Below are positions 4,464 through 32,687 of a DNA stretch of 64,000 bases, one piece after another. The number at the start of each line of letters is the position of its first letter. Positions within the stretch are counted from its first letter, which is position 1. The notes below the pieces were generated by a model, which was given only the letters and a program-made list of their open reading frames with translations, was not told the origin of the DNA and ran no database searches. The stretch is from Pseudanabaena cinerea FACHB-1277. GTDB lineage: Bacteria; Cyanobacteriota; Cyanobacteriia; Pseudanabaenales; Pseudanabaenaceae. The position numbers and the translations under genes were made by a program. The stretch lies in the NCBI RefSeq assembly GCF_014696345.1, contig NZ_JACJPY010000004.1:23517-87516 (forward strand), in the 5' to 3' direction.

Positions 4464-4898
4464 TCAAATATAAAACATTATACCTGAGCGTTTTTTCTCT
4501 TCACATTTTCTGACTAAATCTTCTAGGGTATGTTTGCTTAATACATCAATCGCCCCCCTTCTGGTAAGCTCTCTTATATCTGCAATAACTAGTTTTTCAG
4601 GTGTGATTTGATTATCATTTTGTAACTCTCTAGAGTCTTCACCGTTAAGAGCAACCACTACGTCAATAATTCTAATTTGCCAAGGTTCTTGGGCAAGGTG
4701 ATAGCCTCCTTTAGCTCCTCTCTGACTAGTAATAATGCCTGCTCTCCTTAACATTCCCATGACTTGATCGAGGTAGCGAATGGGAATATTTTGGCTGTGA
4801 GCAATTTCGTTAACAGAGATTGGCTGCCCTTGTCCATGTCGTATCGCTAGTTGTATTAGGGCAATACAAGCATAATCTACCTTACTAGATAGTTCCAT
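4464..4898 (-). CDS. Rrf2 family transcriptional regulator
   Basis: MELSSKVDYACIALIQLA..., RAGIITSQRGAKGGYHLAQEPWQI. Confidence 0.9.
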   Translation of the reverse strand: MELSSKVDYACIALIQLAIRHGQGQPISVNEIAHSQNIPIRYLDQVMGMLRRAGIITSQRGAKGGYHLAQEPWQIRIIDVVVALNGEDSRELQNDNQITPEKLVIADIRELTRRGAIDVLSKHTLEDLVRKCEEKKRSGIMFYI

Positions 4899-22803: not shown

Positions 22804-22890
22804 AAGTAGCTAGGCTATAGGCGATCGCGCGATCGGCAACTTCAATAATTAATAAAATATCCTCTGGCGTTGGCAAAGCTTTAGTCCTCT
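22804..22890 (-). pseudogene. Uma2 family nuclease remnant
   Basis: Frame reads ILERTKALPTPEDILLIIEVADRAIAYSLAT*; PTPEDVLLLIEVAD is the Uma2 active-site region. Confidence 0.6.
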
Positions 22891-22902
22891 CTAATATTCC
22901 TC

Positions 22903-24231
22903 CTATTTCTTAATTTTTCCTTTTGACCTTTCCCTTTTTACTTGTTCCAACAGTACCGATGCTGGCTCATCGTCAGGGTCTTGCGGTACAAGTTCGCCCC
23001 GAAATGCCTTTGCCAATGTTGCCTGTTCTAAGCGATCGCAAAGTTTCGCCGCTTGTTGATATTCTCTTTCCATCCGATCAATTTTCTCAAACATCTCTTC
23101 AACCCGCCGAACAATTTCTTTTTGTTCTTCAAGTGGCGGACAAAATAATTCAATATCGTTCAAAATAGCTAAATTAATATTTTTTTGAGCAGTCGCAGGA
23201 GCAAAAGATTCAAGATCTTCACTGATCATGTCAATCGACCATTTAAAAAACTCTGGTAAACATTTTTTATCATCGCATACGAATCCTACGACACTATCGG
23301 GAAAACAAGCGGGATAAGACAGAATGGCAGTATCTCCAATATTTGCAGCAATTGTTATACAAACTGTACCTGCTTCCCACAATTTACTCTGACTAAGACC
23401 AAATTCACTATAAGTTTGTGAATGATTTTCTATTCTTCCGTTTGATTGTGCAATATCTCCAGTTTGAATAAATGGATAAATACCGCCATACAAACGAGAA
23501 TCATTTCTTGGGCGATGTTTAGATTTTCCGCGTCCTAAGTATCCAATTTCAGCCATTTTGACTCTTCCCCAATTGAATGAAATATTGTTAGTCTCTCGCC
23601 AATCTTCTGTTAATTTACCAGAGCAAGCAGCAGCTAAAACAGCTTGTTTGTAACGCGCAATTAGTTTGGGGATGTGGTTTAGCTCATTACGCGCCGATCG
23701 CTGGCGATCGCCTATCCGATCCAATTTATCCACAATCCGCCGTTGTTCATTAAGTGGCGGGAGATTTATTTGTGTTGTTCGCAAATCTCCTAAAGAAATG
23801 TTATTCATAGCTCCACCACGAGCTTTTTCGCGTAACAACTTAATAGATTCAGAAGAGAGTTGATATAAAAGAAATTGAGGAATGCAATAAAAATTAGTTC
23901 CCCTGATTATTGCAACAGCCTGATTTGTATTTGCTGGGATATCATCTTGTTTAACTAAACAAGTTTCACCAATAGTACCTGCAATAGAAAAGAGGATATC
24001 ATTTTCTTCTAGCTGAGATCTTTTCAGTGTTTCATTAGCTTCTTTAGAAATAAAGGAAGAAATTGAACTTCTAATAATTTGCTTGTTTTTTATGTTTTCA
24101 ATTTTTATAAATCTAATTCCAATATCAAGAAATTGAAATCCTAAAGTTGTTGGTGTTGTTCCTTTTGTAATTAGATTAGAAATATCTTCTAAATTGCATT
24201 TAACCCACCCCATCGGCAAATCATCACTCAT
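22903..24231 (-). CDS. hsdS: type I restriction-modification specificity subunit
   Basis: Two TRD/conserved halves: LPPLNEQRRIVDKLD and CPPLEEQKEIVRRVEEM, plus KLIARYKQAVLAAACSGKLTEDWR. Confidence 0.95.
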   Translation of the reverse strand: MSDDLPMGWVKCNLEDISNLITKGTTPTTLGFQFLDIGIRFIKIENIKNKQIIRSSISSFISKEANETLKRSQLEENDILFSIAGTIGETCLVKQDDIPANTNQAVAIIRGTNFYCIPQFLLYQLSSESIKLLREKARGGAMNNISLGDLRTTQINLPPLNEQRRIVDKLDRIGDRQRSARNELNHIPKLIARYKQAVLAAACSGKLTEDWRETNNISFNWGRVKMAEIGYLGRGKSKHRPRNDSRLYGGIYPFIQTGDIAQSNGRIENHSQTYSEFGLSQSKLWEAGTVCITIAANIGDTAILSYPACFPDSVVGFVCDDKKCLPEFFKWSIDMISEDLESFAPATAQKNINLAILNDIELFCPPLEEQKEIVRRVEEMFEKIDRMEREYQQAAKLCDRLEQATLAKAFRGELVPQDPDDEPASVLLEQVKRERSKGKIKK

Positions 24232-24244
24232 AACCCAACCTCAT
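24210..24244. repeat. direct repeat copy 1 over hsdS start / hepT stop
   Basis: ccatcggcaaatcatcactcataacccaacctca; copy 2 at 24867-24900 with two mismatches. Confidence 0.9.
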
Positions 24245-24578
24245 TACTTAAAATATACTCAATCTGCAAAAACACCTCAGGCAAACTATCAGTCGCAACC
24301 TCCCACACAATATCTAAGTTCACACCAAAATATTCATGAATTAACTTATCCCTCATCCCAGCCATAAACCTCCAAGGAACATCAGGAAAACGCTCTTTTA
24401 TTTTTGGAGAAATGCCCTTACTCGCCTCACCCAAAATTTCCAAAGCCCTAATCACAGCATCTTGAGTTTTAAGATCATTAACAAACTCCTGATAACTGAC
24501 TTGCTCAATATACATCTCAACTCTACGGATAGACTCTAACATATCAGATAGAAGTTCACGATCTGAACGTTTAGACAT
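24228..24578 (-). CDS. hepT: HepT-like HEPN toxin (DUF86)
   Basis: MSKRSDRELL...; RX4HXY motif RDKLIHEYFGV; preceded by MntA-like gene. Likely Met is at 24578. Confidence 0.9.
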   Translation of the reverse strand: MSKRSDRELLSDMLESIRRVEMYIEQVSYQEFVNDLKTQDAVIRALEILGEASKGISPKIKERFPDVPWRFMAGMRDKLIHEYFGVNLDIVWEVATDSLPEVFLQIEYILSNEVGL

Positions 24579-24888
24579 AGACCAGACTCTCAAGGATACT
24601 ACGCGATACATTAGGATTGCGAATATGCTGTACACCCGTCAAAGTCAGCACATCCACCCTACGCCCCAAACACTCCTCAAGGTAATCACACAACTCCATA
24701 AACCGCAAACCAATCGGGCGATCAAACTCAACCACCAAATCCACATCACTAAACAAATTCGCATTCCCACGCGCAAACGACCCAAACAGAGCCAATCTCC
24801 TAATATAAAAATTCTGGCGTAAATATTCCAAATTTTGCCGCAAACACTTGATTATAGATTCCTTATCCATCGGTAAACCATCACTCAT
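24571..24888 (-). CDS. mntA: MntA-like minimal nucleotidyltransferase antitoxin
   Basis: GSX10DXD motif GSFARGNANLFSDVD; overlaps hepT by 8 bp. Confidence 0.9.
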   Translation of the reverse strand: MSDGLPMDKESIIKCLRQNLEYLRQNFYIRRLALFGSFARGNANLFSDVDLVVEFDRPIGLRFMELCDYLEECLGRRVDVLTLTGVQHIRNPNVSRSILESLVYV

Positions 24889-24900
24889 AACCCAACCTCA
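24867..24900. repeat. direct repeat copy 2 over mntA start
   Basis: ccatcggtaaaccatcactcataacccaacctca. Confidence 0.9.
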
Positions 24901-24946
24901 ATTTAACAAACAAACCTTAGCATAAGACAAAAACAGTAGGGATTGG

Positions 24947-25007
24947 GCAATTGCGCCAAAATCTCTCAAACTCATTCAAACCCTTATCCGCAAATGCTCA
25001 ACCCTTA
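24947..25007. repeat. 61-bp direct repeat (B), copy 1
   Basis: gcaattgcgccaaaatctctcaaactcattcaaacccttatccgcaaatgctcaaccctta; copy 2 at 25677-25737, one mismatch. Confidence 0.92.
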
Positions 25008-25069
25008 ACGCCGATCGCCCAGAAATTATGACTGCGGCAGCGAAATTTGGGATAAATGTTAGAGGTTTA

Positions 25070-25134
25070 GGGTAGAGCATTCCCGAATTAAAGTTATCTG
25101 TAAATTAGCAAATCGCGGCAGGAATGCTCTACCC
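25070..25134. repeat. palindromic element with 14-bp inverted ends
   Basis: GGGTAGAGCATTCC ... GGAATGCTCTACCC. Confidence 0.75.
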
Positions 25135-25190
25135 CTACAGCCATTGCATCTTAAATTTACAAACAAGCGATTCAGTCGCTATATTTTACT
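25123..25190. repeat. 68-bp direct repeat (C), copy 1
   Basis: aatgctctacccctacagccattgcatcttaaatttacaaacaagcgattcagtcgctatattttact; copy 2 at 25723-25790, two mismatches. Confidence 0.92.
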
Positions 25191-25302
25191 TTACAAACAA
25201 CCCTAAAAACCTAGATGCAGTCACAACCATCGTACCCTGCGCCCCATTAAATGCCTCAAAATCGCGATCGCCCGTAATGAGATAATCAGCAACTCTAATC
25301 AT
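25186..25302 (-). pseudogene. internally deleted PIN-domain (VapC-like) toxin
   Basis: ATGA-coupled mini-ORF MIRVADYLITGDRDFEAFNGAQGTMVVTASRFLGLFVK*; contains only the PIN C-terminal ADYLITGDRDF segment. Confidence 0.6.
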
Positions 25303-25574
25303 TCGCCTCGCCTATAAGCTGCGATTTCTTCAGCAATCTCTTCATCCGTAATTTCACTGACACCAGGCAAAGCCTGAGTTTCTCTAAATAGCTGCTTCAT
25401 ATCTTCAACCAAAGCTGCACGATTTTCTATTGTTTTAGGCTTTACATGAATACGATTAGTATTTTGTTGAAATATCAAAAAATCCACAAAATCAATCACA
25501 GAATTTAACTTGTCAGATTCAAGATTCTCTAACTTTTCCAAAAGGCGATCGCGTAACATATCAATCGTTGTCAT
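25299..25574 (-). CDS. DUF2281-like antitoxin
   Basis: 91 aa; LLEKLENLESDKLNSVIDFVDFLIFQQ; overlaps PIN remnant by ATGA. Confidence 0.7.
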   Translation of the reverse strand: MTTIDMLRDRLLEKLENLESDKLNSVIDFVDFLIFQQNTNRIHVKPKTIENRAALVEDMKQLFRETQALPGVSEITDEEIAEEIAAYRRGE

Positions 25575-25620
25575 TTGTTTTTAACCTCCGTGCCTTACAT
25601 TCAAACATCATAAGCGATCT
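25571..25620. repeat. shared antitoxin leader repeat, copy 1
   Basis: tcatttgtttttaacctccgtgccttacattcaaacatcataagcgatct. Confidence 0.85.
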
Positions 25621-25722
25621 GAACGTTTAGACATAGACTAGACTCTCATTGTTAGATCCAGAGACGTAGAGGTTGAGCAATTGCGCCAAAATCTCTCAAA
25701 CTCATTCAAACCCTTATCCGCA

Positions 25723-25790
25723 AATGCTCTACCCTTACAGCCATTGCATTTTAAATTTACAAACAAGCGATTCAGTCGCTATATTTTACT
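25723..25790. repeat. 68-bp direct repeat (C), copy 2
   Basis: aatgctctacccttacagccattgcattttaaatttacaaacaagcgattcagtcgctatattttact. Confidence 0.92.
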
Positions 25791-25791
25791 G

Positions 25792-26205
25792 CTACAGAGG
25801 ATTAATTACATCAAAACTATCTGCATCATGAATAAGGTAAAACAAAAAATCAGAATCAGTAGTCAAAATTTGCCTATAACCTAGATTCTCAGCCGCTAAG
25901 ACCAAAGTAGCATCAGCCAAGTCCATAGGGCGATCATGATAACGTTCCATTAACTCTAAAATGCGAACAGAATCTTGCTGTTTAACTTCATAGATGAATA
26001 GATCGTTGTTCAAAAGCATCTTCCCTAATTGTTTTTGGGCAACCCATCCACCACGCTTGTAAGCTAAATACATGGCTTCAGTCAAACAACACCAAGTTGT
26101 AGTCAGAGGCTTATTGAGACGCAAAACCAAATCTCTGTAAGCAATATGTTGAGACTGTTTACGATCGACTAAGCAAAGCATAACGCTAGCATCCTACAAG
26201 ATCAT
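25792..26205 (-). pseudogene. PIN-domain (VapC-like) toxin with nonsense codon near the start
   Basis: ATGA-coupled frame reads MIL*DASVMLCLVDRKQS...DLADATLVLAAENLGYRQILTTDSDFLFY; TAG at codon 4. Confidence 0.75.
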
Positions 26206-26462
26206 AAATCTAATCCTTGATTACGATACTTATCTAATATCGCCTCTTGATACTCATTAACAGGCTCATGCGGTATCAACTCAAGGCGATCGACCTCATC
26301 AAACCACTGTTGCCATTTTGGAGCAACACCATCAGAGAGATTACTAGACTTAACCTCTAACTGATGCCTCATGATCATAAAGTCAATAAAACTATCAACC
26401 TCTTTTAAAATTTCATCTGGCAACTGAAACAGCTTAACCGCAGTCATTTCACGAATTGTCAT
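26202..26462 (-). CDS. DUF2281-like antitoxin paired with PIN toxin
   Basis: KLFQLPDEILKEVDSFIDFMIMRH; overlaps toxin start by ATGA. Confidence 0.7.
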   Translation of the reverse strand: MTIREMTAVKLFQLPDEILKEVDSFIDFMIMRHQLEVKSSNLSDGVAPKWQQWFDEVDRLELIPHEPVNEYQEAILDKYRNQGLDL

Positions 26463-26508
26463 TTGTTTTCAACCTCCGCGCCTTACATTCAAACATCATA
26501 AGCGATCG
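26459..26508. repeat. shared antitoxin leader repeat, copy 2
   Basis: tcatttgttttcaacctccgcgccttacattcaaacatcataagcgatcg. Confidence 0.85.
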
Positions 26509-26556
26509 CCTGTAATTTAGATAATCAGCAGAAGAGCTGATCGCTCTTCACAAGAC

Positions 26557-27006
26557 CTAGGGTAAATTCTCTAAATCCAGCAAATCTTTAAGCCTCCCAC
26601 TAGATAGTTTATTCCGCTTTAAGTCTTGCAAATTAATCGTATTTATACTCAGATCATCGATTTGAACTACCAAACGATTTTCAAAACATTCATCAAATGC
26701 AACTCCTGAAATAGTAGTTAAAATTTCTAACCTTAATGGTGGCACACCCATACGAATTATTTGCTCTTCTTTAAGAAATAGTTCGGGTGATAACTCTGGA
26801 ACTGCAAAACCAAACTCAATGAGAGCATTTACAATACTTGTAGCATTATCTGGGCTAATCCTAACCCAAACATCCATATCACCAGTTGCCCTTACAAATC
26901 CATAATAGCCAACAGCATATCCACCAATCAATAAGTAATCAACTTGATGGAAATTTAGCAATCTCAAAAACTCTTTGAAGTCTTGTGGTATTTGGATCAT
27001 AGCCAT
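26557..27006 (-). CDS. nucleotidyltransferase-like protein (AbiEii/DUF6036-type)
   Basis: VDYLLIGGYAVGYYGFVRATGDMDVWV (GG...DxD). Confidence 0.78.
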   Translation of the reverse strand: MAMIQIPQDFKEFLRLLNFHQVDYLLIGGYAVGYYGFVRATGDMDVWVRISPDNATSIVNALIEFGFAVPELSPELFLKEEQIIRMGVPPLRLEILTTISGVAFDECFENRLVVQIDDLSINTINLQDLKRNKLSSGRLKDLLDLENLP

Positions 27007-27154
27007 ACATTACCTGTCTTAGATGTTCCAATGCTATCAACCTTTCGGAAGGACTTTTGAGCAACCAATAGCCTTTATCTTCACTATCATCATCCTTTAA
27101 ACCAACAACACTAAAAGATGAACTATCAAATTTAAAACCGTTATTGTTGTTCAT
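26939..27154 (-). CDS. small protein partner of the nucleotidyltransferase, putative antitoxin
   Basis: MNNNNGFKFDSSSFSVVGLKDDDSEDKGYWLLKSPSERLIALEHLRQVMYGYDPNTTRLQRVFEIAK; overlaps the NTase gene by 68 bp. Confidence 0.75.
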   Translation of the reverse strand: MNNNNGFKFDSSSFSVVGLKDDDSEDKGYWLLKSPSERLIALEHLRQVMYGYDPNTTRLQRVFEIAKFPSS

Positions 27155-27161
27155 GATACCT

Positions 27162-27204
27162 CATCAAATTCCGTACTTTACATTCAAACATCATAAGCGA
27201 TCGC
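27162..27204. repeat. shared leader repeat, copy 3 (diverged)
   Basis: tcaaattccgtactttacattcaaacatcataagcgatcgcct. Confidence 0.75.
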
Positions 27205-27217
27205 CTAGTAGATAAAT

Positions 27218-27247
27218 AGGGTGCGTTACGCTAAGCTAATGCACCCT
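27218..27247. repeat. palindromic repeat AGGGTGCGTTACGCTAAGCTAATGCACCCT
   Basis: Inverted repeat; related stem at 57753-57837. Confidence 0.6.
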
Positions 27248-27260
27248 ACAGAATTTTTGA

Positions 27261-28745
27261 TTAGTTTAACTCCTCTATCAACCCATCGATCGCCGCTAGT
27301 GCATTTTTTAAATGAGTGGCGATCGCCGCCGCAATTTCTTCTGGCTCCGTCATTTCATCTTCAGGATCATCGCTAGTGTCGCGCAGCCATGCAATATCCA
27401 GATTGTCATTGCGATCGCTAATTTGTTCGCGAGTAAAGCAACGGAATCGCCCTTCTTCACCTTGATCGATGCGTGGTGACTTCCCATAGGGATCTTCACC
27501 AAAGGCGGCTTCAAATTCGGCAAAATCAGCGAGGGTGAGTTGGCGGGTTTTGCCGAAGGTGTTGGTATTGGCTCGCATATCGTACACCCACACGGCTTTG
27601 GTGTTGCCGCGATCGCTCTTACCGCGTGTAAAAAATAGCACATTAGTTTTCACGCCTTGAGCATAAAAAATGCCAGTGGGCAATCGCAAAATCGTATGCA
27701 GATCGCAGAGTTCCATTAGCTGCTGTCTTAACTTTTTGCCTGTATTATCTTCAAAGAGAACGTTGTCAGGTAAGACTACGGCGGCTCTGCCATTGGGTTT
27801 GAGGGCGCGATAGATATGCTCGACAAAGGCAAGTTGTTTATTAGAAGTTTCGGCAGTAATCGAGAAGTCATTGCGGGTGGGACGACCACCGCCTTTTTTT
27901 GTGCCGAAGGGAGGATTAGTGAGGATCACATCAGCTTTGCCAAGGGTTTCGCCATCGGGGGAGAGGCTATCGCCGCAATCAACGGGGCTTTCGATGCCAT
28001 GCAGCATCAAGTTCATCAGGCAAAGGCGATGGGTATCGGGAACTAATTCTAGTCCGCGAAAGGCTTGGCAAATTTGGAATTCTTGAGCTTTGCTACTGAG
28101 TTGGTAAAAATCATCAGTCTGGGCTTTGATGTAATGATCGGCGGCGACTAAGAAACCTGCTGTACCTGCGGCGGGATCTTGGATAACTTCCCCTGCTTGG
28201 GGCTTGATCAGTCTGACGATCGCATCGATCAAAGGTCTAGGCGTGAAATACTGCCCTGCACCCGATTTCTTTTCGGCAGCATTTTTTTCTAACAAGCCTT
28301 CATACAGGTTGCCCAACCCTTCTTCACGGGCGGAAAACCAATCAAGGGCATCGATCGCATCGGTGATCGCTTTGAGATTAGTGGGTTTGCGGAGTTTGGT
28401 TTGAGCATCGGTAAAGATGGCTAGTACCACTGCGTCATTCACTTTCTTCGGTGAACCCAAATCTAGCAATAGCTGTTTGTAAAATTCTAATTGTTCCAAA
28501 CCTTGGCGATCGTCAAGATCTTGCCAGCGATAGTTTTCAGGAAGGCGGCTTTCTTTGCCTGTTTCGGCAAGCATTTTCAGGAATAGCAGATAGGTCAACT
28601 CGGTGACATATTCGTTATAGGTAATGCCATCATCGCGGAGAATATTACAGAGATTCCAGAGTTTCGCGACAATATCACGGGTGATATTCCCATTTGTGCT
28701 ATCGCCATTACTGCCATTATGCTTACTCAAGCTTGCTTTAACCAT
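27261..28745 (-). CDS. hsdM: type I restriction-modification DNA methyltransferase
   Basis: GAGQYFTPRPLIDAIV, QDPAAGTAGFLVAA, ILTNPPFGTKKGG. Confidence 0.97.
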   Translation of the reverse strand: MVKASLSKHNGSNGDSTNGNITRDIVAKLWNLCNILRDDGITYNEYVTELTYLLFLKMLAETGKESRLPENYRWQDLDDRQGLEQLEFYKQLLLDLGSPKKVNDAVVLAIFTDAQTKLRKPTNLKAITDAIDALDWFSAREEGLGNLYEGLLEKNAAEKKSGAGQYFTPRPLIDAIVRLIKPQAGEVIQDPAAGTAGFLVAADHYIKAQTDDFYQLSSKAQEFQICQAFRGLELVPDTHRLCLMNLMLHGIESPVDCGDSLSPDGETLGKADVILTNPPFGTKKGGGRPTRNDFSITAETSNKQLAFVEHIYRALKPNGRAAVVLPDNVLFEDNTGKKLRQQLMELCDLHTILRLPTGIFYAQGVKTNVLFFTRGKSDRGNTKAVWVYDMRANTNTFGKTRQLTLADFAEFEAAFGEDPYGKSPRIDQGEEGRFRCFTREQISDRNDNLDIAWLRDTSDDPEDEMTEPEEIAAAIATHLKNALAAIDGLIEELN

Positions 28746-31700
28746 ATTTCCTCGTTGATATCGCCTAAAATCTGCTCTAATTGTCCTTCAAAAGCACGAT
28801 TAATGTTTTTAAATCCGCCATCCCGTTGAAAACTCCCTTGATCGAATGCCTCGCGATCGACTACTACTTCTTTAATAATTTGATCTCTAATCCGCTCTAA
28901 CCATTTACGCTGTTTTTCTGTCCATGGTTGCCTTTTCAGAATCCTTGTAACTGCCGATCTGACGCGATCTTCATAGGGCATGAGGGGATCGCCGATCGCT
29001 GCTTGACGGACAAAACCAATGATCGAAGCCGCTATATCTTCATTTTTAGTATCGCGCCATGCTTGCTGTAAATAAACATCAGAATAGCCCTTGAGATCGA
29101 GTTCGCGGCGCAATTCTCGCAACTGGGAGCGGGTCAACTCGCGGGGACGCTGCAAAACGACGGTGAGGGCGGCGATTTGATTAACGTTATTGCGGACATA
29201 ATCGGTAAAGCTATCTAAAAAATCTTGCGGTTTTTTGCCTTCACCATAGCCACGAGTAACGGAAATAACTTCATCTTCATGTTCGGAAATAGGAATCCAA
29301 GTACCTTCATAAGTGGGCTTCCATTCCCAAATTTTGCCAAGATAGGGACGCGATCGCACCCATTCGATCATTTCGGCAGTAGTCATCGTTTTGAAATTAG
29401 CGAGACTACTAGCAGGAGTTTCCCCACTTTGGGTTTCGTAATTTTCCTTAGCGCGATCGCCCATTCTGGTAATTTTTTGGCGCATTTTGACCAGAATTTG
29501 ATCGCGAATTTCGGCTTGGTGCTGCGGATCACCGACCTGTATCAATTCATCAAATAGCTGCTCTAGGCTGATTTGCGGATTAACGATCACGGGTTTCATG
29601 GCGCTGACTTCTTGCATTTGTTTGTAAATATCGACAGCATCATAGATTTTGAATACCTGTTTGCCAATCTCATTACAGCGCCTTGTGGCTCTGCCGATCA
29701 TCTGTTCATAGAGAATGCGGCTATTGACGCGACGCAAAAAGACAAGGTTACAGATTTTGGGAACGTCTATCCCTGTGGTGAGTAGATCAACGGTAACGGC
29801 AATGCGTGGTAAGGAATCATTACGGAAAGCGCGAATTTTGCCTTGAACGCCATCGACTGAGCCTGTTAATTTTTGAATGGCATCATTTTCTAATTCTTCA
29901 TAACGTCCTTGCATAGCACGTTTGAGGCATTGCACGACTATATCAGCATGATGATCATTTGCAGCAAAGATGAGAGTTTTCTCGTCTATGAGTGGGTCAA
30001 TACGGGCAGTAAGTTCGAGGGCGATCGCTTGGTTAAAGGATTCTGTAATGACCTGTTTATTAAACTTCTCCACATCAAAATTTAGCTCATCGGGCGTGTT
30101 GCTGAGATCGATCGCGCCTGTAACCGTGTTGTAACGCGAGATTTCTTCATTAGCGGCAAAACTAATCCCAAGTTCGCTGAGTTTGGTACGAATCTGGATC
30201 GGTGGCTCATGGTCGATGAGAATGCCATCGATGACGGCTTCACGATAGCCATAGGTATAAATTGGTTCACCAAAGATCGCTTTAGTATGCAGGGCAGGAG
30301 TGGCAGTTAAGCCGATTTTGACAGCATCAAAATGTTCTAAAACGCGGCGATACTTGGAGATGTAGTCATCTTGATTGCGGAAGCTTAACTCACTATCGGA
30401 CATCTCGCGATCGAGCAGATAGCCACGATGACATTCATCAATCAAAATCAAATCATATTGATCAATCGGTGGAATATCGCCATTTTCTTTGGCATAGAGA
30501 ATGCGCTTGACTAAGCCTTGAATTGTGCAGATATGCACCTTCGTCTCTGATTCGGGATCGATATCCTTTAAGCCCTTGATACCAAAAATATCAGCAAAGG
30601 TTCTCATACTCACAACTTTAGTCGATGTAAATTCATCGGCGGTTTGGTTGCCGAGGGCGCTGCGATCGACAACAAAACAGACACGGCGAAAGCGTTGGGC
30701 AGACAGTAAACGATATAACAGAGCGATCGCTAGTTTGGTTTTGCCAGTGCCTGTTGCCATTGCCACCAGCATCGATCGCTGATCTTTTTCGAGAGCCGCT
30801 TCAATCTTCTCAATGGCGGCGCGTTGGTGTGGATAGAGATCAAAGCCAAAATTGAAACTGGTATTTTTTAACTTCTCATGGGCAGTTTCCCGATCCATTG
30901 CCAAGAGTGCTTCCAAACCTTCGGGAGTATAAAAGTCAACTAGCGCTCGGCTGTGATTGGTGGATTTGCGGCGATCGCGAAACCAAATACCACTTGCGGT
31001 TTCCAGTTGTTTGAGATAGCCGCGCCCATTGGTAGCGAATACGAAGGGAACTTCTGGGCTATACCCTCTCGCATACCGTTCCGCCTGTGCGATCGCCCCT
31101 GCCACATTTTTGCGCCGCCGCTTGGCTTCGATCATGGCGACACAGCGCAAGCCGATGAATAGGGCATAGTCAGCAATACCATCACGGGTGGGATATTCGG
31201 CAATGGCGATATTTTTGCCCTTGGAGGGACGCACACCTTGGCTATAGCGCAGGTTTTGGCTATCCACTTCCCAACCCCGATCGCGTAATTTTTGATCGAT
31301 AATCTGACGGGTTTGGTCTTCATCGAGATCAATACTTTGGGCAGCGATTTCCGACCGTTTAACGATTTCGGCAGTTTGCTTGGGAGTGACGGTGAGATTG
31401 GTAATTTGCTGTGCCAGTTTTTGTTCCGTTTCGATCGCCATTTGTTCCCACAGTTGCTTTTCGGCTTCAGCTTGACGGGCTTTGGCTTCGGCAGACATCA
31501 GGGCGCTCTCTTTTTGGGCTATTTCGAGGCGCGATCGTTCAGCAGCCGACTGACTATCAAGGGCGATCGCTTGCAGTCTCTCAATTTCCGCTTGCAGTTC
31601 GGCTGTGGCATCGATGGGCGCAACAGGTGGCACAAAGGCTCCCGCTTTAAAATTTCTGTCCTTAAAGGTGCGATGAAACCAGATGCCCAATTGTCGCGCA

Positions 31701-32041
31701 TTTTTGAGGAGGGTGAGGGCTTCGCGGCTGTCGGTATTGCGGGAGTTATGGACAGCTTTGTTACCTGCGATGCGGATGGCATGGAAGAGATCGGCGACTT
31801 CACTAGAAATGATGCCTTCAAGTTTGAGGCGTTTGAGCAATTCCGCCTGTGGTTCGTCTGAGGATTGGTACAGCCCCGTATTGGCGGCGATGATTTTGGC
31901 AAGGCGTTCGGCATATTGGCGCAGCTTGATGATGCAGGTGTTGCTGTCGCTATGGAAAAACTGTTCAGCGAGGGCAGCAAGCTTTACCAATTGCGGATCA
32001 TGCTGGTGCAAAAATTCAAAGTTAGCTGACTGTATTTCCAT
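28727..32041 (-). CDS. hsdR: type I restriction endonuclease subunit R (DUF4145-HsdR-DEAD)
   Basis: Nuclease region GIADYALFIGLRCVAMIEAKRR; Walker A MATGTGKTKLA; DECHRGY; C-terminal EcoEI-type region; overlaps hsdM by 19 bp. Confidence 0.96.
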   Translation of the reverse strand: MEIQSANFEFLHQHDPQLVKLAALAEQFFHSDSNTCIIKLRQYAERLAKIIAANTGLYQSSDEPQAELLKRLKLEGIISSEVADLFHAIRIAGNKAVHNSRNTDSREALTLLKNARQLGIWFHRTFKDRNFKAGAFVPPVAPIDATAELQAEIERLQAIALDSQSAAERSRLEIAQKESALMSAEAKARQAEAEKQLWEQMAIETEQKLAQQITNLTVTPKQTAEIVKRSEIAAQSIDLDEDQTRQIIDQKLRDRGWEVDSQNLRYSQGVRPSKGKNIAIAEYPTRDGIADYALFIGLRCVAMIEAKRRRKNVAGAIAQAERYARGYSPEVPFVFATNGRGYLKQLETASGIWFRDRRKSTNHSRALVDFYTPEGLEALLAMDRETAHEKLKNTSFNFGFDLYPHQRAAIEKIEAALEKDQRSMLVAMATGTGKTKLAIALLYRLLSAQRFRRVCFVVDRSALGNQTADEFTSTKVVSMRTFADIFGIKGLKDIDPESETKVHICTIQGLVKRILYAKENGDIPPIDQYDLILIDECHRGYLLDREMSDSELSFRNQDDYISKYRRVLEHFDAVKIGLTATPALHTKAIFGEPIYTYGYREAVIDGILIDHEPPIQIRTKLSELGISFAANEEISRYNTVTGAIDLSNTPDELNFDVEKFNKQVITESFNQAIALELTARIDPLIDEKTLIFAANDHHADIVVQCLKRAMQGRYEELENDAIQKLTGSVDGVQGKIRAFRNDSLPRIAVTVDLLTTGIDVPKICNLVFLRRVNSRILYEQMIGRATRRCNEIGKQVFKIYDAVDIYKQMQEVSAMKPVIVNPQISLEQLFDELIQVGDPQHQAEIRDQILVKMRQKITRMGDRAKENYETQSGETPASSLANFKTMTTAEMIEWVRSRPYLGKIWEWKPTYEGTWIPISEHEDEVISVTRGYGEGKKPQDFLDSFTDYVRNNVNQIAALTVVLQRPRELTRSQLRELRRELDLKGYSDVYLQQAWRDTKNEDIAASIIGFVRQAAIGDPLMPYEDRVRSAVTRILKRQPWTEKQRKWLERIRDQIIKEVVVDREAFDQGSFQRDGGFKNINRAFEGQLEQILGDINEEIWLKQA

Positions 32042-32687
32042 ATTGCTGCATGAGCCATGCGGTGACGGCAGATTGATTGGCTTGGCGACTACGTTCGAGT
32101 GCCTGTTCTAATATTTCTAATTTTAGTCCAGACAGCACTAAGGATTGGCGAATATGATGACTGCCACCATCTGGGGCGATCGCAAAGGCGTAGATTTTCA
32201 TAGTTTGGACATTGACGATCCAATATTCTTTGATACCTAGTTCTTCGTATTGCAGGCGTTTTGTGCCGAGGTCATCGTTGAAAGTGGTGTCCGATATTTC
32301 GATGACGAGATCGGGTAAGGGATAGATATCGAGGTCAATGATGCGCGTTCCCCATGCGATCGCATCGGCATTGTCACCAATGTAATAGGAGGCATCGGGC
32401 TGAAATTCGGTTTTCCCTGTTTTACGATATGAGCAGCCGTCATGCCCATTGATTGGGATGCCTTGCATGGCGGCAAATAGTCCCACAGCCATAATGATGA
32501 TCATGTGGACTTTGGCATGATCGGAACCTGTGGACATATCTTCAAATCTCATCTGGTGGTTGTAATAGTAGCTTTTGCGTTTGTCGCTATCTGGCGCATC
32601 GGCGATCGCCACAAATTCTGTCCAAGGAGCGCTAATCCATGTGTTTAACGTTGTTTTGATTGGGGTTTCGGTTTCTACTAACAGCAT
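32022..32687 (-). CDS. Uma2 family endonuclease (DUF820)
   Basis: PDASYYIGDNADAI...YPLPDLVIEISDTTFNDDLGTKRLQYEELGIKEYWIVNVQ; overlaps hsdR by 20 bp. Confidence 0.9.
   Translation of the reverse strand: MLLVETETPIKTTLNTWISAPWTEFVAIADAPDSDKRKSYYYNHQMRFEDMSTGSDHAKVHMIIIMAVGLFAAMQGIPINGHDGCSYRKTGKTEFQPDASYYIGDNADAIAWGTRIIDLDIYPLPDLVIEISDTTFNDDLGTKRLQYEELGIKEYWIVNVQTMKIYAFAIAPDGGSHHIRQSLVLSGLKLEILEQALERSRQANQSAVTAWLMQQYGNTVS

Follow-up and report, generated by a model that had tools for sequence, protein, structure and literature searches.

Do toxin-antitoxin (TA) modules that stand inside a type I restriction-modification (R-M) operon form one defence system together with it, or is the operon interior a place in which such modules are captured and lost? 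This question is raised by a stretch of 64,000 nucleotides from the cyanobacterium Pseudanabaena cinerea FACHB-1277 (contig NZ_JACJPY010000004.1, positions 23,517 to 87,516), which is termed the window in the following and to which all coordinates given without a locus name refer. On its minus strand, the genes Uma2, hsdR and hsdM are followed by a TA island of 3,029 bp and subsequently by hsdS. This arrangement, with all open reading frames (ORFs) on the minus strand, had been proposed in a preliminary description of the sequence and is borne out, as are the overlaps of a few bases that it reported between Uma2 and hsdR (20 nt), hsdR and hsdM (19 nt), and hepT and hsdS (4 nt, the hepT stop and the hsdS start sharing ATGA). 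The frame of the operon comprises the following features:

32022-32687, minus strand: gene of a Uma2-family protein, upstream border of the operon (ORF; tblastn 83% identity to a protein of locus L044, the latter being a Pfam Uma2 match)
28727-32041, minus strand: hsdR, type I restriction subunit, EcoEI-like, PRK11448 type, N-terminal DUF4145 (family matches)
27261-28745, minus strand: hsdM, type I N6-adenine methyltransferase (family matches)
27217-27248, no strand: 12-pair hairpin repeat, REP-like, immediately 3' of hsdM (repeat/hairpin)
22903-24231, minus strand: hsdS, two-domain specificity subunit, 442 aa, ORF intact (ORF and family matches)

With hsdR, hsdM and hsdS all open, the gene set is complete, and these open and matching genes assign it to the EcoEI-like type I R-M systems. 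According to PMC3710099, the DUF4145 domain at the N-terminus of this HsdR belongs to the HEPN superfamily. The preliminary description had further regarded the whole as a single co-directional unit, of which the shared direction stands, but the modules within the island do not overlap one another and are separated by spacers of about 94-410 bp, which contain repeats and hairpins. One transcript across hsdM, the island and hsdS is possible, and the hairpin behind hsdM is a possible transcription boundary.

In the order of transcription, the island contains a 71-aa ORF with a nucleotidyltransferase gene, a VapB-like ORF with PIN gene a, a second VapB-like ORF with the remnant of PIN gene b, and mntA-hepT:

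26939-27154, minus strand: 71-aa ORF, partner of the nucleotidyltransferase, without family match (ORF call)
26557-27006, minus strand: DUF6036-like nucleotidyltransferase (Pfam E 1.2e-4, slightly below the curated cut-off)
26202-26462, minus strand: VapB-like antitoxin ORF a (48% identical to L041 8062-7802; weak VapB match)
25789-26205, minus strand: PIN toxin gene a, TAG at codon 4 (L041 carries an intact PIN gene of 67% identity)
25299-25574, minus strand: VapB-like antitoxin ORF b (L040 has a close relative with a shifted frame)
25186-25302, minus strand: PIN toxin b, a 38-aa C-terminal remnant (91% identity with a truncated remnant from the relative G002)
24571-24888, minus strand: mntA, minimal nucleotidyltransferase (MNT) antitoxin, GSX10DXD intact (Pfam, motif check)
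24228-24578, minus strand: hepT, HEPN RNase toxin, RX4HXY intact as RDKLIHEY (Pfam, motif check)

The first of these pairs, a small ORF with a nucleotidyltransferase gene, is present as originally described, and its two ORFs overlap. On the other hand, the two DUF2281/PIN pairs that had been claimed hold only in part: two units of an antitoxin-like ORF and a PIN sequence do exist, but neither VapB-like ORF matches Pfam DUF2281 (PF10047) at E < 0.1, PIN a is interrupted and PIN b is a scrap. The in-frame TAG of PIN a (26196-26194, reading 'MIL*DASVML') was recovered independently by the genome-wide PIN search, and the relative locus L041 carries an intact codon at this position; as a result of the stop, the first catalytic Asp falls outside the ORF that begins at 26181. 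Among the acidic residues, all of which an intact toxin was expected to retain, VapBC module a has consequently lost the first, and module b is left with its 38-aa PIN remnant, so that neither counts as intact. Within L041 (6110-6535), a chimeric ORF joins the C-terminal half of a PIN gene to the C-terminal half of an MNT gene and is apparently a recombination product.

The MntA-HepT pair, also part of the original claim, is clear: HepT (PF01934) and MntA (PF01909) both exceed the curated cut-offs, the antitoxin gene comes first, and both catalytic motifs are present, that of MntA as GSFARGNANLFSDVD. Since HepT (47.8 bits) and MntA (42.5 bits) remain below the NCBIfam equivalog cut-off of 60, the pair is filed as HEPN/MNT family and not as an NCBIfam equivalog. 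To judge from their sequences, both the nucleotidyltransferase pair and MntA-HepT look intact. Across the loci compared, embedded HepTs mostly keep RX4HXY, two of them with K for R, and the MntA motifs are kept as well. In a second hsd locus of the window genome (L139; G000:C103:1-9000), hsdM and hsdS enclose three MNT genes, one HepT gene and a YafQ-like toxin; an internal repeat of 232 nt occurs between two of the MNT copies.

Maintained HEPN/MNT motifs would be expected if TA cassettes were selected for keeping the R-M operon from being lost in recombination, and hsdS replacement is indeed evident in the region. However, window toxins have often been lost while the R-M genes remain intact, and in the relative G016 (locus L044, 17950-18096) an in-frame internal deletion (48 aa) has removed the catalytic motif of hepT, with its start and the ATGA overlap kept, beside an intact hsdS. 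Such locus-stabilising addiction is considered unlikely.

How the island was assembled is suggested by repeats within and around it:

27178-27202, minus strand: 25-nt leader GATCGCTTATGATGTTTGAATGTAA, copy 1 (repeat search)
26483-26507, minus strand: 25-nt leader, copy 2 (repeat search)
25595-25619, minus strand: 25-nt leader, copy 3 (repeat search)
25723-25790, minus strand: repeat D3, 3' of PIN a (97% identical to 25123-25190)
25123-25190, minus strand: repeat D3, 3' of the PIN b remnant (copy of 25723-25790)
25615-25648, minus strand: mntA/hepT junction relic, 34 nt, joined to the leader, before antitoxin b (97% identical to 24559-24592)
24867-24900, minus strand: hsdS ribosome-binding site with initial codons, duplicated and today forming the mntA start (copy of 24210-24243)
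24210-24243, minus strand: hsdS ribosome-binding site and start (copy of 24867-24900)

One copy of the 25-nt leader precedes each of the three upstream modules of the island. Among 13 genomes searched with up to three mismatches, the leader is confined to the orthologous hsd locus, where it lies ahead of cassettes (three copies in the window genome G000, two each in G002 and G016, one each in G023 and G025), and the reversed control gave no match under the same settings. The leader is readable as a short ORF (MMFECKARRLK...), and in locus L191 its upstream part is similar to the final stretch of a PIN gene (ADYLISGDRL); from these two observations it may itself be TA debris. In addition, the ribosome-binding site and start of hsdS (GAGGTTGGGTTATGAGTGATG) occur twice, at hsdS and at the start of mntA, the first codons of the latter (MSDGLPM) being a copy of those of HsdS (MSDDLPM). 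Because the reversed control of the 21-nt hsdS-start pattern yields two chance matches, this pattern is weaker evidence than the leader. Duplications of the hsdS start were found in the window, G016, G023/G025, L223, L229 and L253, and thus in several unrelated hsd families, though in a minority of loci, low-complexity matches in L176, L178, L183 and L193 being left uncounted. The same survey of hsd loci revealed no duplication of the hsdM start and a duplicated hsdR start in two related loci; stubs of a former hsdS start persist in L040 and L043.

We read these repeats as traces of successive recombination events that assembled and shortened the island in situ. An origin by transposition was rejected, given that the window island lacks a transposase, the duplications vary in length (31-103 nt) and the leader occurs at one locus only. 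In G023, the hsdS-hsdR gap contains an ORF that resembles a transposase on visual inspection only (L042, 3491-4318); no such ORF is present in L043, the closely similar locus of G025. Searching plasmids with the island sequence returned short matches only, mostly from Pseudanabaena.

Whether such an arrangement is particular to this operon was addressed by comparing 95 hsd loci of the genus, 49 of other cyanobacteria and 76 of diverse other bacteria. Gaps of at least 200 bp between hsdM and hsdS occur at 50 of 74 junctions in the genus and 28 of 44 in other cyanobacteria, as opposed to 9 of 71 in other phyla; in both cyanobacterial groups the two genes are often 0.5-3 kb apart, with varying small genes between them that are rich in TA functions. 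On the contrary, hsdM and hsdS of non-cyanobacteria with the same HsdM subfamily overlap (median -4 bp), and within the HsdM subfamily of the window, gaps of this size are found in 15/20 cyanobacterial versus 9/71 other loci (P = 2e-7, more than chance would give, with related loci treated as independent samples and ORFs called mechanically). At least one TA gene lies in the hsdM-hsdS gap of 27/74 loci of the genus, 14/44 of other cyanobacteria and 0/71 of other phyla, the last figure being mostly due to the near absence of a gap and therefore independent of the search seeds. The families encountered comprise PIN, HepT/MNT, BrnT/BrnA, Phd/YoeB, ParE, YafQ, DUF433/DUF5615, XisH/XisI and DUF2281, and further Fic, RhuM, Schlafen/AlbA, YhcG, Uma2 and DUF29.

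TA genes and R-M genes might also share genomic regions in the manner of plain defence islands, the hsdM-hsdS position being nothing special, and the occurrence of TA genes at other hsd junctions and, less densely, in the flanks fits such clustering. Yet TA density per kb is about an order of magnitude higher in the gaps than in the flanks, TA genes between hsdM and hsdS are co-directional with the operon in 91 of 95 cases (58/62 in the genus, 33/33 in other cyanobacteria) compared with 32/47 flank TA genes in both cyanobacterial groups, and hsdS starts are duplicated. Taken together, these observations make mere clustering very unlikely. The distinction between junctions is less sharp than it first appeared: a 3- to 4-fold excess of the hsdM-hsdS gap over other inner gaps, obtained with seeds, was inflated because the seeds missed PemK, HigB and other TA families in the other gaps, and a Pfam check reduced it to about 2-fold per kb. 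Among size-matched small ORFs, TA matches to Pfam amount to at least about 43/102 in hsdM-hsdS gaps, against at least about 26/86 in the remaining inner gaps of hsd operons and at least about 14-16/95 in flanks, these sums being approximate minimum counts over 25 listed families per set. In this genus, the interior of hsd operons is accordingly TA-rich as a whole, and the proposed capture region is this interior and not the hsdM-hsdS gap alone, which is its densest part per kb. Random placement of the same TA modules elsewhere, named beforehand as the observation that would count against a link to the operon, is not what was seen; TA modules concentrate at internal hsd junctions.

Genome-wide counts point in the same direction, with at least 5 of about 91 HepT genes located at hsdM-hsdS junctions in 26 genomes (about 0.06 expected) and 4 of 154 PIN genes in such gaps in 6 genomes (0.13 expected), where the expected numbers are based on an assumed gene content of about 4,500-4,700 per genome and regard relatives as independent samples, which renders P values rough. 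A tree of 41 HepTs requires at least four changes between embedded and free, indicating that HEPN/MNT pairs were recruited several times; a single ancestral insertion is rejected by this tree. A joint transfer of hsd locus and cassette is also suggested by some of the embedded clades, whose members come from different cyanobacterial families. Moreover, module content turns over between close relatives: in L224 and L225 the starts of hsdM and of hsdS are near-identical, and the content of the gap differs. PIN genes embedded in hsd loci (between hsdM and hsdS or in other hsd gaps) carry in-frame stops in 4 of 7 cases versus 4 of 147 elsewhere (P = 1e-4; P = 1e-3 without the window).

These results bear directly on the composite addiction or abortive system envisaged in the preliminary description, in which embedded TA modules would act as guardians of the R-M system in analogy to PrrC and EcoprrI, so that loss or inhibition of HsdS or HsdM would lower the antitoxin or activate the toxin and arrest growth. 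The concentration of TA genes inside hsd operons is confirmed, and this reading may further point to the intact MntA-HepT with its overlap into hsdS, to HEPN/MNT having been recruited here several times independently, and to the precedents of PrrC (PMC12707154) and of an immunity-suicide coupling hypothesis set out in PMC3506569. The mechanism, however, does not follow: one PIN toxin of the window is interrupted and the other a scrap, stops in PIN genes are frequent at hsd loci, cassette identity varies even among close relatives, and the TA pairs have antitoxins of their own, which is atypical of immunity-coupled toxins according to PMC3506569. For the PIN pairs, the broken toxins argue against a coupling of R-M loss to toxin release; within the window, any coupling could rest solely on MntA-HepT and possibly the nucleotidyltransferase pair. 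Overall, composite defence is regarded as quite improbable, and the island looks like a hotspot for capturing TA pairs and not like one designed combined defence system.

PrrC (PMC12707154) and DarTG2 (PMC12255303) are established examples of toxin or TA genes within type I R-M operons, and a linkage of HEPN genes to R-M operons was reported (PMC3710099). A close likeness is offered by the RRDM island of EPEC, where a full TA module, DarTG2, lies inside a type I hsd operon at a site termed a potential recombination hotspot for defence systems by the authors (PMC12255303). In that E. coli island, a single module with a dedicated repressor is located between hsdS and hsdR, whereas the window carries several unrelated and partly broken modules between hsdM and hsdS, with duplications of the hsdS leader, in a cyanobacterium. 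The anticodon nuclease PrrC of the EcoprrI type IC locus likewise is an RNase toxin of the HEPN superfamily within a type I R-M locus (PMC12707154), but is kept inactive by the R-M enzyme without a separate antitoxin, whereas the HepT of the window has its own MntA. The type VII HepT/MntA system of Shewanella oneidensis (PMC7641770) shares RX4HXY, GSX10DXD, the antitoxin-first order and PF01934/PF01909 with the window pair, which differs in lying inside an R-M operon with translational overlap to hsdS. The accessible parts of PMC3710099 and PMC3506569 treat the linkage of HEPN toxins and R-M in general, without a cyanobacterial hsdM-hsdS junction, start duplication or toxin decay, and our literature search found no report of a cyanobacterial hsdM-hsdS TA junction or of hsdS-start duplication.

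In our judgement, the hsdM-hsdS junction of cyanobacterial type I R-M operons, and less strongly their other internal junctions, is probably a recurrent capture site for TA and accessory cassettes. Building on the location, recurrence and direction of the cassettes, the leader duplications, the decay of PIN and the integrity of HEPN/MNT genes as read from the DNA, capture may be pictured as follows. Diversification of hsdS would supply the recombination by which cassettes enter at the 5' end of hsdS, a route suggested by the sequences, and entry would often place a duplicate of the leader or the start of hsdS ahead of the new cassette. Through this copy, the newcomer would be read in the direction of the operon and could use the hsdS ribosome-binding site, presumably co-transcribed with the operon. 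Cassette content is quickly replaced. Embedded PIN toxins would be passengers that decay, and HEPN/MNT pairs, recruited several times, would persist with their catalytic residues; the intact MntA-HepT might at most stabilise the locus by addiction. A bolder extension, offered tentatively and thought unlikely, holds that both the leader and the start of hsdS are duplicated at every capture, such that expression of the TA pair keeps pace with that of hsdS, HEPN/MNT being retained as a monitor or stabiliser of hsdS replacement.

With the capture site, isolated reports of toxins in R-M operons would fall into a pattern that is quantified at the level of the phylum, and duplication of the hsdS start indicates a concrete mechanism of assembly. 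It furthermore tells persisting modules (HEPN/MNT) apart from decaying ones (PIN). Whether TA genes in immune loci are partners or passengers is an old question, which may now be tested in cultured cyanobacteria.
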